Positions 24,012 to 59,880 of a DNA stretch of 64,000 bases are shown piece by piece. The notes beneath the pieces are model-generated. The model was not told the DNA's origin, ran no database searches, and saw only the letters and a program-made list of their open reading frames with translations. The position numbers and the translations under genes are program-made. Source of the DNA: Melioribacter sp. Its GTDB lineage: Bacteria; Bacteroidota; Ignavibacteria; Ignavibacteriales; Melioribacteraceae. The stretch covers positions 1 to 64,000 of the forward strand of contig JAHEZQ010000007.1 of NCBI GenBank assembly GCA_023250955.1, read 5' to 3'. Numbering within the stretch: the first letter of the stretch is position 1; the number at the start of each line of letters is the position of its first letter.

Positions 24012-24764
24012 ATGGACACAACAATTATGAACTCGGTTAAAGATTTTTCAAAAATAAAAATAAAGGATGTAGTTACGGAAAATTTCCATGCGGCTGAACT
24101 TTTCGAAAAACTGGGAATCGATTTCTGCTGCAACGGAAACCGCCTTTTACAAGAAGCACTTGAAGAGAAACACATATTAGACGTTAAGTTTTTTGAAGAG
24201 CTTAACAAAGTAAATATGTCTATTTCATCGGATGACCAAAGATATGCGGATTGGGACCTGAATTTTCTTGCACAATATATTGTGAATAATCATCACACAT
24301 ATGTAAAGAACGCCATCCCCGAGATAACTGCACATCTTCAAAAAGTTTACAATGCACATGCGAAAAAATATCTTTACATAGCCGAGGTTCAAAACGCTTT
24401 TGCACTCGTTGCAGAAGAAATGACAAGCCATATGATGAAGGAGGAGCGGATTCTTTTTCCATTAATAAAATATTTAGCGGAAACGCAAAAGTTCAACGAG
24501 AAACCCAAAACCGGAGGATTCGGAACTATAAAAAACCCGATCCTACAGATGGAAGCAGAACATGTTGCTGCAGGCGGCACAATGGGAACAATTAGAAACC
24601 TGACCAATAATTATACTTTACCGGAAGATGCATGTACAACTTTTAAGGTAGTTTACAAAGAACTTGATGAGTTTGAAAAAGATTTGCACAAACACGTACA
24701 TTTGGAGAACAACATTCTCTTTCCTAGAGCAATTGAGCTTGAAGAATTACTTTTGAAAAAGTAA
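24012..24764 (+). CDS. ric: Ric/YtfE/ScdA-type di-iron iron-sulfur cluster repair protein
   Basis: 250 residues. The N-terminal DUF542 domain has DFCCNG with the paired Cys. The rest is a hemerythrin-like four-helix bundle with conserved His and Glu (NHHTYV, HMMKEERILFP, EAEHVAAG, KHVHLENNILFPRA), which bind two irons through carboxylates and histidines. Ric proteins repair iron-sulfur clusters damaged by nitric oxide. A CAGGAG site precedes the ATG. Its position after nirK fits protection against the NO this operon makes. Confidence 0.92.
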   Translation: MDTTIMNSVKDFSKIKIKDVVTENFHAAELFEKLGIDFCCNGNRLLQEALEEKHILDVKFFEELNKVNMSISSDDQRYADWDLNFLAQYIVNNHHTYVKNAIPEITAHLQKVYNAHAKKYLYIAEVQNAFALVAEEMTSHMMKEERILFPLIKYLAETQKFNEKPKTGGFGTIKNPILQMEAEHVAAGGTMGTIRNLTNNYTLPEDACTTFKVVYKELDEFEKDLHKHVHLENNILFPRAIELEELLLKK

Positions 24765-56159: not shown

Positions 56160-56813
56160 TTAATGCAAAATAGTTACAAGGCCGTCGTCAAGATCATATC
56201 TTGCCCCGACAATGTTTAATTTCTTTTCGTGCATGAACTCTTTTAATATTGGTTCAGATGAACTTAGTTGTTTTACAACCATTTGCACATTTGCTTTAAC
56301 GGAGTTATCAAGTAAATCGCCTTTGTTGTTCTTTGCTTTTTCAACTGCAGGACGAATTGCATCAATCAAATTTTGAATATGTCCCTCAGCATGATCTCCC
56401 TTCACTGCGGCATCAACAGCTCCGCATTTTTCATGGCCGAGGACTACAATTAACTGAACTCTCAAATGTTCAACAGCATATTCAATACTGCCAAGACCAA
56501 TATCATCAATAATATTCCCCGCTGTGCGAATTACAAACAAATCTCCCAGTCCCTGATCAAAAATTATTTCGGGAGGAACGCGTGAGTCAGAACATGTTAC
56601 TACTACAGCAAATGGCTTTTGTCCCTTTGCAACCTCCGATCTCCTTTCACTTGTTTGGTTAACATGCATTGGTTTTGAATCTGTGAACCGTTTATTGCCG
56701 TCAATTAACTTTTGTAATGGCGATTGAGAATCAAAACCTTTATGTGTTTGTGCAATAACGCTTATACTTAAAACGGTAATGATTAATGCTATTGTCTTTT
56801 TACCGGTTTTCAT
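56160..56813 (-). CDS. exported beta-class carbonic anhydrase
   Basis: 217 residues with a signal peptide (ending near Val-Ile-Ala-Gln). CSDSRVPPEIIF and HEKCGAV give the zinc ligands Cys, His and Cys and the catalytic Asp-Arg pair of the beta class. The rest of the chain is of family length. It interconverts CO2 and bicarbonate. A periplasmic place is inferred from the signal peptide and is unusual for this class. A gene for a secreted esterase follows on the same strand. Confidence 0.9.
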   Translation of the reverse strand: MKTGKKTIALIITVLSISVIAQTHKGFDSQSPLQKLIDGNKRFTDSKPMHVNQTSERRSEVAKGQKPFAVVVTCSDSRVPPEIIFDQGLGDLFVIRTAGNIIDDIGLGSIEYAVEHLRVQLIVVLGHEKCGAVDAAVKGDHAEGHIQNLIDAIRPAVEKAKNNKGDLLDNSVKANVQMVVKQLSSSEPILKEFMHEKKLNIVGARYDLDDGLVTILH

Positions 56814-56922: not shown

Positions 56923-58074
56923 ATGGCCAATTCAATTAATCATCCTACTATTAGTTCAGATGAAATCATTCGTCCAACGCGTTTGGAAATAAATCTGAAA
57001 ATCTTATCCGATAATTTTAATAAAATAAAAACTGCTGTAGCACCGGCGAAAGTAATGCCGATCTTAAAAGCTAACGCTTACGGACACGGGCTGGTAAAAG
57101 TTGCCCAACTGATGCAAGAACTAAAATCTGATTGCATTGGAGTTGCCGTTCTAGAGGAAGGAATTCTTTTAAGGGAACAAGGAATTACAATTCCAATTTT
57201 AGTGCTCGGTGGAATTTGGGGAAATCAAATTCCGCTCTTCTTAAAACATGATTTAACTATTACGGCATCTTCTGCAGATAAGTTAAGTCAAATAGATGAA
57301 TTTGCTTCGCAGATGAAAACTAAAGCCAAGGTTCATCTAAAAATAGATACGGGAATGGAGCGGATTGGAGTTCATTATTATACGGCAGAAAAATTTCTTG
57401 AATCCGCAGTTAAATGTAAAAATATCCGGATAGACGGAATTTATTCTCACCTTGCAAATTCAGAATTGCTGGATACAACTTACACACTTACACAACTTGA
57501 AAGATTTCAAGAAGTATTAAGATTTTTTGAAAAACATTCAATCGAAATGCCTCTTCGTCATATTGCAAACTCCGGTGCAATACTTCAAACACCAGAAGCA
57601 TATCTTGATATGGTCCGTCCCGGAATAATGCTATACGGTGTTTATCCATCTAACGAAACTGCAAAAACAATTTTTGTTCAACCTGCATTAACCTGGAAAT
57701 CGCTGGTAGTTTATTTTAAAATCATTAAAGCCGGTCATCCGGTTGGATACGGTTTAACATGGAAACCCAAACAAGATATCCGCGCAGTTACTGTTCCTCT
57801 CGGCTATGGCGATGGGTATTTCCGAAGCATGAGTCACAAAGCTGAGGTCTTAATCCGTGGAAAACGTTACCCCGTTGTTGGTTCAATCTCTATGGATCAA
57901 ATAATTGTTAACATAGAAAATGATTCTGCATTTAACGGTGATGAAGTTATTTTGATTGGTCAAGACGGTTCAAATAAAATTTCAGTTGAAGAACTTGCAG
58001 ATTGGGCGGGGACAATTCCTTACGAGATACTTACAAACATCAACACGCGTGTACCGCGGTTGTATTTAGAATAA
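56923..58074 (+). CDS. alr: alanine racemase
   Basis: 383 residues, fold type III PLP enzyme. The PLP lysine is Lys49 in MPILKANAYGHG. KIDTGMERIGVH, HIANSGAI, MVRPGIMLYG and GYGDGYFR follow, and the C-terminal beta domain holds the catalytic Tyr in VGYGLTWKP and VGSISMDQ. It makes D-alanine for peptidoglycan. It is divergent from the carbonic anhydrase gene and convergent with the unknown 600-residue gene, only 3 bases away. Confidence 0.95.
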   Translation: MANSINHPTISSDEIIRPTRLEINLKILSDNFNKIKTAVAPAKVMPILKANAYGHGLVKVAQLMQELKSDCIGVAVLEEGILLREQGITIPILVLGGIWGNQIPLFLKHDLTITASSADKLSQIDEFASQMKTKAKVHLKIDTGMERIGVHYYTAEKFLESAVKCKNIRIDGIYSHLANSELLDTTYTLTQLERFQEVLRFFEKHSIEMPLRHIANSGAILQTPEAYLDMVRPGIMLYGVYPSNETAKTIFVQPALTWKSLVVYFKIIKAGHPVGYGLTWKPKQDIRAVTVPLGYGDGYFRSMSHKAEVLIRGKRYPVVGSISMDQIIVNIENDSAFNGDEVILIGQDGSNKISVEELADWAGTIPYEILTNINTRVPRLYLE

Positions 58075-58077
58075 TTT

Positions 58078-59880
58078 TTAATTTGCTTGTAATGAATAAA
58101 CCATCAGCTTCTCTTCCATCATCTCAAAACTTTCTAACATTTTTTCTCTAACTATTTCCGGTTCCTCAATTATTTCATCAATCATATTTTTGTAATAATT
58201 AATTCCTTCAAGCAAGTTTGTAGTGAACAAAGAAAAATATTCTGCTTTCTGATCAGATATGTTCTCGCCTTGATCATCAATCCTTTTCGTTAAATAGTCA
58301 ATGTATAGTCCAAGTTCTTTTACAAACATATTCGGTCTGCTCGGATGTGTTATGAGATCAATTCTACCGTAAATGTGATCAACCATTTCATGAAGAGTAG
58401 AAATTTTTGAATAATACGCCAGATTGGGTCCGGGGCATACAGACACAGCGCGGCTTTGTTTTGGCGATGGGATATTGTTTACTATCAGCGCAGGTACGGT
58501 TAGTCCTTCACATAGACAAACTTTGTTAACGACTTTATCATATTCTTTTTTGTATTCATCTTCGTTTGTATAATTTTCTTTTAGCTCGGCAATTTTTTTG
58601 TTGATGTATGTGATTGATGCTGTACATTGCGGTTTATCAGAATAATCTTTGTTCGAGACTAAAAACTTTTTAGGGCAAGGACTTCCTGGTTTTCCGTTTT
58701 CAATTCTTTCCATTTTTTCAATGTCTTTGCTGTTGCCTCGCAGACTGTTGAAAGGAATTCCCAACGGAGAAATATCGCTTAAGTACAAATCTTCTTCTCC
58801 AGCGGCTGCAAGTTTATGTAACGTATAATCATCAACATTCATTACTTCAGGAACTAAGAGGAACGGACTTCCCCATCCAACTGATTTAACTCCGTAATAA
58901 CGAAGTAGAAATTCCTGTTCGCTTGATGTACCAACTCCGCCCTGAACAGTTACATCATAATTTAATTTTTCAGCGTCAGCTGTAATTTCTTTTTTGATGA
59001 GCGCTGGTAGATATATTTCTTTAAGAGTGTTCAGCAATTCGTCTTTTTTATTTTTGAATTCTTCGAGAATCGGACCGAGTAATAAACCATCCGTTGCAAA
59101 TGCATGACCGCCGCAATTTAATCCGGACTCAATTCGATACTCTGAAACCCATAATCCTTTCTTAGCTAAAAACTTTCCTTGAATCAAAGCGGAGCGGTAA
59201 TCACTTACTTTTATTACAATTTTCTTTTTAAAACTACTTTTCTCGTTGGGATAAAAATCCTTAAACGTTTCAATGTAGCCGTACAATTTTGGATTCATGC
59301 CTGCGGAAAAAATAATCGAACTTTCCAGATCGCTCATTGCGAATCCGCGTAAGGCGGCATGTGCGTCGTTAAATTCATGCGAAAGTTGGGTGCCTTCGGA
59401 ATTATAATTTGCTTTATCCACCTTTGTCATGATGTTTACATCAATCGAGCCGGGATAAATATTATTCCGTAATTCGTTTTGTAAATTTATTTGAGCTCGT
59501 TCGTTCTCCGAGTTCAGCATTTCGTAATATTTGATTTTCAATTCAGATGAGTCCGGAAGCATTTCAAAATATTTTGTAATCCCGCTTCCTATTTCAAATG
59601 GTGAGTTTTTCAATTCTTCGAATTGTTCTTCCACTAATTGCTTGACCATATTTAAGTATGCAGTTATTCTTAGAGAGCGTGCTTGGTCACTGTCGTCAAT
59701 TTTTACGTATGGTCTGCCTAATTTTTCGAGGTAGTGCTGGCGTAGTCGCTCCACCAAAGTATCGTCAACGAGCGACATAACAGACGATATTCCGTACTTC
59801 GCTACTTTAAGGGGTGCGTCAACAGAGAAAGCAACACCGAGAACGGGAATGTGAAATTTATGTCCGATAGATTTAAACAC
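58078..59880 (-). CDS. conserved 600-residue protein of unknown function
   Basis: 600 residues, no signal peptide or membrane segment. It begins GHKFHIPVLGVAFSVDAPLKVAKYGISSV. It has GLNCGGHAFATDG near residue 260 and VQGGVGTSSEQEFLLRYYGV near 315, which resemble FMN-binding TIM barrels such as nitronate monooxygenase and FabK. From about 390 there is a Cys-containing part: SPCPKKFLVSN, QCTASITY and CLCEGL. This could hold a zinc or iron-sulfur centre. I have seen this protein as a widely conserved hypothetical in Bacteroidota. The function is unknown; an oxidoreductase is only a possibility. Confidence 0.75.
   Translation of the reverse strand: MFKSIGHKFHIPVLGVAFSVDAPLKVAKYGISSVMSLVDDTLVERLRQHYLEKLGRPYVKIDDSDQARSLRITAYLNMVKQLVEEQFEELKNSPFEIGSGITKYFEMLPDSSELKIKYYEMLNSENERAQINLQNELRNNIYPGSIDVNIMTKVDKANYNSEGTQLSHEFNDAHAALRGFAMSDLESSIIFSAGMNPKLYGYIETFKDFYPNEKSSFKKKIVIKVSDYRSALIQGKFLAKKGLWVSEYRIESGLNCGGHAFATDGLLLGPILEEFKNKKDELLNTLKEIYLPALIKKEITADAEKLNYDVTVQGGVGTSSEQEFLLRYYGVKSVGWGSPFLLVPEVMNVDDYTLHKLAAAGEEDLYLSDISPLGIPFNSLRGNSKDIEKMERIENGKPGSPCPKKFLVSNKDYSDKPQCTASITYINKKIAELKENYTNEDEYKKEYDKVVNKVCLCEGLTVPALIVNNIPSPKQSRAVSVCPGPNLAYYSKISTLHEMVDHIYGRIDLITHPSRPNMFVKELGLYIDYLTKRIDDQGENISDQKAEYFSLFTTNLLEGINYYKNMIDEIIEEPEIVREKMLESFEMMEEKLMVYSLQAN

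Follow-up and report, generated by a model that had tools for sequence, protein, structure and literature searches.

A widespread 600-residue protein of Bacteroidota, probably a far relative of the NMO superfamily with a predicted flavin barrel and a putative metal site

FabX of Helicobacter pylori (HP0773) is an acyl-acyl carrier protein (ACP) dehydrogenase/isomerase of the NMO family, in which a flavin mononucleotide (FMN)-type barrel with the histidine of a GGH motif, an AGGI-like loop and an SPxGxP motif is followed by a subdomain where C300, C304, C308 and C320 bind a [4Fe-4S] cluster; according to the excerpted text of the same paper, H182 adjoins the FMN, the cluster aids re-oxidation of the flavin, and no acceptor except oxygen was found (PMC8626469). 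Barrel and GGH histidine are also present in FabK (TIGR03151) and classical nitronate monooxygenase, which have no cysteine-rich subdomain of the kind described below. Here we report on a gene on contig JAHEZQ010000007.1 of Melioribacter sp. (Bacteroidota; Ignavibacteria; assembly GCA_023250955.1), of which positions 1 to 64,000 were analysed (the window, 64,000 nucleotides). Its product (the target) resembles FabX in the predicted barrel and the three motifs and in having cysteines behind the barrel, differs from it in size (600 versus 363 amino acids), in a large helical insert and in a C-terminal extension, and is, as judged from profile comparisons and structure models, very probably a far relative of the NMO superfamily.

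58078 to 59880, minus strand: gene of the 600-amino-acid protein, read from a GTG start codon at 59880 to the stop codon at 58078-58080 (included)

The kinship is supported by profile comparisons, for which the target family was represented by 87 sequences; the window copy is one of them, each covers 85% or more of the query, and some are closely related to one another. When the query was compared by BLASTP with a single 418-amino-acid FabX-like NMO protein of the phylum, 353 of its residues aligned at 23% identity with E 6.4e-4, a value for this one sequence, and hhalign of alignment A1 against the family of that protein gave P 1.8e-4 and a probability of 48%. Profile comparisons with single families were too weak to serve as the deciding test, and related subfamilies had to be merged. 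Against the merged 418-amino-acid proteins, 483-amino-acid NMO proteins and FabX-type proteins, the target reached a score of 77.7 (probability 96%, P 4.8e-9). Adding FabK and NMO gave 77.5, and leaving out the FabX-type proteins gave 51.1 (P 2.1e-5). Decoys stayed far lower, with maxima of 26.1, 23.5 and 28.7 in 30 column shuffles per merged profile and of 24.7, 30.7 and 21.0 with reversed profiles, and 49 families of neighbouring genes, which had not been selected as TIM barrels, scored at most 25.0. These control families stem from a first neighbour clustering that had split the target family itself; it was discarded and replaced by connected components, in which 80 targets form one group. 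A profile comparison with PfaD was impossible because no protein of the sampled genomes passes the PfaD model: 24 of 148 genomes had weak matches to parts of it that all stayed under the cut-off, and none of 395 genomes had a match at E ≤ 1e-20.

Structure models point in the same direction and divide the protein as follows.

58741 to 59856, minus strand: beta/alpha barrel of FMN type, predicted for about residues 9-380 and interrupted by a helical insert near 40-140 (AlphaFold2 models and structural matches)
58081 to 58338, minus strand: predicted C-terminal helical extension, about residues 515-600, past the region that aligns with the NMO relatives (AlphaFold2)

The full AlphaFold2 model, built with 22 sequences, has a mean predicted local distance difference test (pLDDT) score of 67.8 and a mostly well predicted barrel; values below 50 are found at residues 1-18, 152-155, 255-262 (the GGH loop), 336-414, 416-423 and 452-511. 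A model of residues 1-400 reached 74.4, with values below 50 at 1-19, 254-265, 337-385 and 396-400. In VIA-align, the full model matched FabX (9lt5; Z 13.9, 4.4 A, 244 residues aligned), PfaD (4z9r; Z 13.7) and the trans-acting enoyl reductase of MlnA (Z 13.1), and the shorter model matched PfaD (4z9r; Z 15.3, 3.6 A, 222 aligned), the MlnA enoyl reductase (15.2), FabX (13.9), FabK (13.1) and 2-NPD (12.2). Rows 1 to 17 of the latter comparison are structures of FabX, FabK, PfaD/trans-acting enoyl reductases, 2-NPD and PA1024, which we take to belong to the one NMO superfamily. On predicted models, the fold is thus that of an FMN-type beta/alpha barrel and PfaD-like.

The motifs aligned with those of FabX and other NMO proteins lie in five stretches of the barrel.

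59422 to 59442, minus strand: DVNIMTK, residues 147-153; N149 aligned with the Asn of the FabX-type vNxM, Asn in 87 of 87 sequences
59104 to 59136, minus strand: RIESGLNCGGH, 249-259; H259 aligned with the catalytic His182 of NMO/FabX, C256 extra and invariant
58930 to 58947, minus strand: VQGGVG, 312-317; aligned on AGGI, the flavin-side glycine loop of NMO proteins, FabX G221 on G315
58846 to 58878, minus strand: GWGSPFLLVPE, 335-345; aligned on GVQxATRF...E of FabX-type proteins, T243 on S338 and Q240 on G335
58750 to 58773, minus strand: ISPLGIPF, 370-377; aligned on SPVGxP of FabX

In the profile alignment VNIMTK, GGH, QGGVG, GWGSPF...E, SPLGIPF and CLC of the target stand over N-x-M...K, GGH, AGG, G-x-Q...F...E, SPxGxP and CLC. 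Invariant in all 87 sequences are N149, K153, E251, N255, C256, G257, G258, H259, Q313, G314, G315, G317, G335, W336, F340, E345, S371, P372, G374, C402, C419, C455, C457, C482, G484 and N486; position 337 is Gly in 84, and position 338 is Ser in 65 and Thr in 22. When the FMN contacts given for FabX in the excerpted text of PMC8626469 are mapped by alignment, not by superposition, H182 falls on H259, G180 on G257, G221 on G315, A242 on G337 and T243 on S/T338; the profile alignment places E175 on E251 by way of a gap of one residue, and N149 would by its motif correspond to N99, another contact. H259 lies on His182 in the profile alignment as well as in the multiple alignment. From these alignments and the models, binding of FMN by the target is likely. 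A flavin barrel had been proposed in a sequence-only reading of the window, and this proposal is now backed by the decoy-tested profile comparison, the NMO-like matches of the models, the conserved catalytic histidine and the conservation of most FMN-contact positions.

Behind the barrel follows the second conspicuous part of the protein.

58435 to 58677, minus strand: cysteine-rich region, residues 402-482, with C402, C419, C455-x-C457 and C482; predicted metal or iron-sulfur (Fe-S) site, five cysteines past the barrel invariant in 87 of 87 sequences, mostly modelled at pLDDT below 50

In the columns other than the invariant ones, Cys never occurs in half or more of the 87 rows. Two NMO subfamilies come close to this arrangement: the 418-amino-acid FabX-like proteins (L155 type) with C319, C332 and C358-x-C360, plus C368 and C371, and the 483-amino-acid proteins (L197 type) with C378, C398 and C421-x-C423. 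Like the target they have two upstream cysteines followed by C-L-C, so that the order of the cysteines and the C-x-C (usually CLC) are common to all three, and N-x-M/L...K, GGH, AGG and S-x-T-G-x-P are aligned as well; they differ in scoring over the Pfam NMO cut-off, in being shorter and in having no C-terminal extension. The 483-amino-acid subfamily (L197, with relatives among L202-L217) has the spacing C-x19-C-x22-C-x-C, and two plasmid records of it (Deinococcus, Streptomyces) are labelled nitronate monooxygenase; we met no account of its cysteine site, although no literature search was aimed at it. FabX has C-x3-C-x3-C-x11-C and five FabX-type proteins of the phylum (355-381 amino acids) have C-x3-C-x3-C-x7-C, whereas the target has C-x16-C-x35-C-x-C, plus C482; the FabX spacing C-x3-C-x3-C-x7-11-C is not found among C402, C419, C455 and C457. 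This suggests that cysteine subdomains past the NMO barrel come in at least two arrangements.

A metal centre had been suggested for this region. The invariant cysteines, the C-x-C common to two NMO subfamilies and the post-barrel [4Fe-4S] of FabX speak indirectly in favour of it, and it stands as a predicted site in a part of the model with low confidence. By analogy with FabX and from the conservation of the cysteines, an Fe-S site is probably the better assignment than zinc or structural cysteines. The alternative is a flavoenzyme without Fe-S electron transfer, similar to PfaD/FabK and driven by NAD(P)H, in which the role of the cysteines would be structural or to bind zinc. In its favour, the best fold match comes from PfaD, which is not known to use a cluster or to have a cysteine cluster site, and C-x-C pairs occur in zinc sites too. 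However, the subdomain that follows this barrel in FabX binds a [4Fe-4S] cluster, according to the excerpted text of PMC8626469, and some neighbours of the target gene encode Fe-S repair proteins. We regard the alternative as rather unlikely, although it is the strongest of those considered here.

Several observations weigh against the superfamily placement and the proposed sites. No Pfam or NCBIfam model reaches the window copy. The single-family hhalign comparisons with the 87 sequences were weak, with P 0.0059 for the 418-amino-acid, 0.0041 for the 483-amino-acid, 0.0073 for the FabX-type, 0.028 for the FabK and 0.17 for the NMO family. In VIA-align the last NMO rows (Z 12.2) tie with GMP reductase (12.1), IMPDH follows below, and the lead over barrels without FMN is modest. 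Foldseek matches were marginal, those of the full length being led by pyruvate phosphate dikinase and malate synthase (E 1.2e-3 to 1.7e-3) and those of the fragment by PfaD at 6.9e-4, followed by an aldolase at 1.2e-3. In the models, both the cysteine region and the GGH loop (255-262; 254-265 in the 400-residue model) stay below pLDDT 50. A gap-free MAFFT alignment places S252, not E251, on FabX E175, and FabX Q240 and the N-terminal GGMG are not kept in the target. Furthermore, the register of C402/C419 relative to the other subfamilies shifts between alignments, and the cysteine spacing is unlike that of FabX.

The gene itself is open throughout, with 600 codons and no internal stop. The motifs named in the sequence-only reading were found where they had been placed (VQGGVGTSSE at 312-321, GLNCGGH at 253-259, SPCPKK at 400-405, QCT at 418-420 and CLCEGL at 455-460), and they are not due to chance, since residues within them (C256, G257, G258, H259, Q313, G314, G315, C402, C419, C455 and C457) are conserved between the window copy and 21 homologues (47-94% identity to the window copy) and throughout the 87-sequence set. 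Homologues, most of them 45-94% identical across nearly the full length, were detected in 141 of the 395 sampled genomes of the phylum and in 74 of 170 genera (E ≤ 1e-3), which agrees with the expectation that the protein is widespread among Bacteroidota. A contig scan with exact peptide patterns, which reaches near relatives only, gave 21 loci with titles from Ignavibacteriales/Melioribacter, Flavobacteriales (Flavobacterium, Salinimicrobium, Maribacter) and unresolved Bacteroidetes. Searches of 50,697 phage and 72,556 plasmid records gave no match. The window genome contains a single copy. Two stop-free copies were found in one other genome (G152, C25:3036-4775 and C31:114607-116364), and in another a broken second copy with shifted frames and stops inside (L110; G095:C1, about 4371179-4372459) occurs beside an intact copy elsewhere in the genome.

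Family libraries do not name the protein. The window copy had no Pfam match above cut-off, no NMO (PF03060) match at E ≤ 10, no usable match among PDB sequences and no NCBIfam match at E ≤ 10, hence none to TIGR02814 (PfaD) or TIGR03151 (FabK); the TIGR02814 cut-off of 449.25 bits is not reached, which sets the target apart from the PfaD/trans-acting enoyl reductases that match its barrel best (Z 15.3). With the 22 sequences, Pfam gave weak scattered matches at E ≤ 1 (best Apolipoprotein, 1.4e-5, in three members), and NMO was not among the 25 of 32 families listed. These matches of single homologues, to helical, coil-rich families, were set aside, and a KIX match of the window copy (E 0.39) as well as ribosomal-protein and acetyl-CoA synthetase matches in a profile search of PDB sequences (E 0.16-1.8) were at chance level. 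In literature searches, neither the protein nor its link to nos genes surfaced among the matches listed. The sequence models of NMO (Pfam), FabK and PfaD do not recognise the target, and it lacks the cysteine spacing of FabX; it is therefore filed in none of these four and belongs to a family undefined in the searched libraries. The earlier statement that it lacks a known function holds for Pfam, NCBIfam and PDB sequences; the match to a characterised family that was to refute it exists at the level of the superfamily and not at that of the family.

Gene neighbourhoods were compared for 80 target loci. Across the phylum the target has no constant neighbour, and few loci have a gene on the same strand less than about 60 bp away (upstream in 6 of 79, downstream in 9 of 80). 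In several lineages, including Flavobacterium, the target lies near nosZ, nosL, nosD and ABC genes placed as nosF/nosY; nosB was named by its LNHYIGM motif, described in PMC9697520. Some Bacteroidota, for example the Flavobacterium of that paper, consume nitrous oxide, and the target gene is not mentioned in the examined text of the paper. Of the 80 target-carrying genomes searched, 42 have nosZ, and in nine of these (G042, G061, G081, G092, G103, G107, G122, G211 and G364; families f22, f30 and f32, six of one family) it lies 1.5-10.1 kb from the target on the same strand, about 0.21 being expected at random placement. RIC, an Fe-S cluster repair protein, was found in 56 of the 80 genomes at E ≤ 1e-20 (52 over cut-off), and in six of the 56 (G033, G061, G081, G092, G211 and G364) it lies within 3.1 kb, with 0.09 expected. 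A quick tree of 79 targets requires at least six changes of the nos-linked state (12 loci), gains and losses not being distinguished. Near single targets, a copper nitrite reductase (L079), HemN (L093) and a cbb3 oxidase (L066) scored over their cut-offs, and a heme A synthase-like protein (L109, L107) and a heavy-metal P-type ATPase (L066, L082) below the cut-off of the closest models. Nor-type genes near the target in L022 and L079 were read by eye, and three of them gave no NCBIfam match at E ≤ 1e-10. In L093, L094 and L109 the same gene group, apparently tyrosine phenol-lyase/tryptophanase-like, directly follows the target, and RIC directly precedes it in two of them.

A different setting was found in two Flavobacteriales loci (L013, L014), where the target starts 12 bp after the preceding and ends 18 bp before the following gene. 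In L013, of whose twelve listed neighbours seven were scanned, genes of the anaerobic benzoyl-CoA (coenzyme A) pathway surround the target: the flanking ones encode a thiolase and a 6-hydroxycyclohex-1-ene-1-carbonyl-CoA dehydrogenase, both of which score over cut-off. On the upstream side are a CoA ligase, a subunit resembling 2-hydroxyacyl-CoA dehydratase/benzoyl-CoA reductase (below cut-off) and, within this aromatic gene set at L013:4864-6714, a fusion of 2-dehydropantoate-2-reductase-like and acyl-CoA dehydratase activase domains (both over cut-off). Downstream, past one gene on the opposite strand, follow a 6-oxocyclohexene-carbonyl-CoA hydratase, which exceeds its cut-off, and a dienoyl-CoA hydratase-like protein, which stays below cut-off.

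The locus in the window shows no denitrification or low-oxygen context, nosZ was not found in its genome at E ≤ 1e-40, and the partners of its clade are an alanine racemase in convergent orientation, a carbonic anhydrase and a GH92 enzyme. The racemase gene (56923-58074, plus strand) ends 3 bp from the target stop, and 11 of the 80 loci have a relative one to four genes downstream of the target; only one of these is neither among L002-L012 nor the window. Carbonic anhydrase (56160-56813, minus strand, in the window; L022:6379-7041) lies within eight genes of the target in 12 of 80 loci, which are of Ignavibacteria type, Flavobacterium and one other; it was assigned as Pro_CA in L022 and by sequence group in the rest. 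A RIC gene (TIGR03652, E 6.2e-67) is encoded at 24060-24731 on the plus strand, about 33 kb from the target. The question of which genes travel with the target thus has a divided answer: low-oxygen and denitrification genes in some lineages, and none in the window's own.

Where that context is present, a role at low oxygen is fairly likely, if slightly less so than FMN binding. The following points weigh against it. The 80-genome sample was picked after the neighbourhood scan and includes five already known linked cases, and the limits of 10.1 and 3.1 kb were chosen after the distances had been seen. Most loci have no denitrification gene directly beside the target, RIC making up 4 of 120 direct neighbours, and the presence of nosZ differs only modestly between target-positive (42/80) and target-negative genomes (25/80; Fisher p 0.01, uncorrected for descent). 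No clear regulator motif stood out upstream: patterns like those of FNR, HcpR, NsrR and Rrf2 were not enriched in 77 upstream regions of targets compared with 600 background regions; a CRP-like pattern (at most one mismatch) occurred in 4 of the 77 and 11 of the 600.

The best explanation we can offer, held with even confidence, is that the target is an FMN/[4Fe-4S] acyl-thioester oxidoreductase of the NMO superfamily that is used under anoxia. It would be a soluble flavoenzyme with a design nearest to FabX and PfaD/FabK, binding FMN on the beta/alpha barrel with N149, E251, G257-258, G315 and S/T338 close by, and H259 beside the flavin would serve as catalytic acid/base. The post-barrel subdomain (C402, C419, C455 and C457, with C482 close) would hold the cluster, which would relay electrons between FMN and an outside partner. 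At low oxygen or during denitrification, the substrate would most likely be an acyl-CoA or acyl-ACP, whose 2,3-bond would be oxidised or reduced. The redox mechanism with FMN, H259 and electron transfer by the cluster is drawn from the analogy with FabX. The acyl-thioester substrate is put forward tentatively, a little below even confidence, from the superfamily kinship and one operon type. What the analysis shows are the conservation, the remote homology, the predicted barrel and the neighbourhoods in other genomes, while FMN, the [4Fe-4S] cluster, the substrate, the direction of the reaction and use under anoxia are what we infer. The gonococcal FabX homologue NGO1024 is induced anaerobically, like the nitrite reductase aniA (excerpted text of PMC3032703), and is reported to be essential for anaerobic unsaturated fatty acid synthesis (excerpted text of PMC11300592), an earlier example of enzymes of this kind in a denitrifying lifestyle.

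The same neighbourhoods could be read as a defence against nitrogen oxides, with a flavin/Fe-S protein handling nitric oxide, nitro or nitronate compounds from denitrification. In keeping with this, RIC directly precedes the target in 4 of 80 loci, in 4 an Rrf2 regulator is the first or second gene ahead of it, nos genes occur in Flavobacterium and other loci, a copper nitrite reductase is found in L079, and the target has kin in a superfamily whose true nitronate monooxygenases oxidise nitronates. Yet nosZ is present in only 42 of the 80 target-carrying genomes, none of the seven scanned neighbours in L013 is a nitrogen-oxide gene, the three presumed nor genes had no NCBIfam match, and most of the leading fold matches are enzymes with acyl-thioester substrates. 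We consider this defence unlikely, slightly more so than zinc or structural cysteines.

The target might also replace FabX in making unsaturated fatty acids without oxygen, introducing the cis double bond once desaturases that need oxygen no longer work. Such a role would agree with the fold kinship to FabX and with the anaerobic induction (PMC3032703) and essentiality (PMC11300592) of NGO1024 given in the excerpted texts. In addition, a match to the 418-amino-acid FabX-like or the canonical FabX-type protein was found in none of the 141 target genomes and in 88 of 254 others, within the sensitivity of one query. However, 81 of those 88 belong to family f26, so that descent can explain the exclusion, the context in L013 is degradation and not synthesis, and no recurrent fab gene is among the neighbour groups listed; this role is improbable. 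That the barrel has lost its catalytic activity, or that the target is a redox sensor in control of anaerobic genes, for which one could cite that no export signal was noticed and that it usually lies outside a fixed operon, is very improbable given the catalytic histidine and most FMN positions conserved in 87 of 87 sequences and the absence of DNA-binding or signalling domain matches of the window copy in Pfam and NCBIfam.

About one in three genomes sampled from the phylum thus carry a protein unnamed in the searched libraries, which gains a superfamily, a catalytic histidine and a possible metal site, and for which several lineages give a physiological setting of denitrification, Fe-S repair, low-oxygen respiration and anaerobic aromatic degradation. 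It is conceivable, though on balance doubtful, that it represents a new class of enzymes: FMN/[4Fe-4S] acyl-thioester oxidoreductases with a differently built Fe-S subdomain that would carry out a core acyl-CoA or acyl-ACP step without oxygen. If true, this class would have been recruited to denitrification clusters and to an anaerobic aromatic-degradation operon. Being conserved, probably a redox enzyme of the cytosol and in some genomes encoded next to nos genes, the target is a concrete candidate for a knockout, and the genes for life without oxygen around it in several lineages give a first testable direction for its job.

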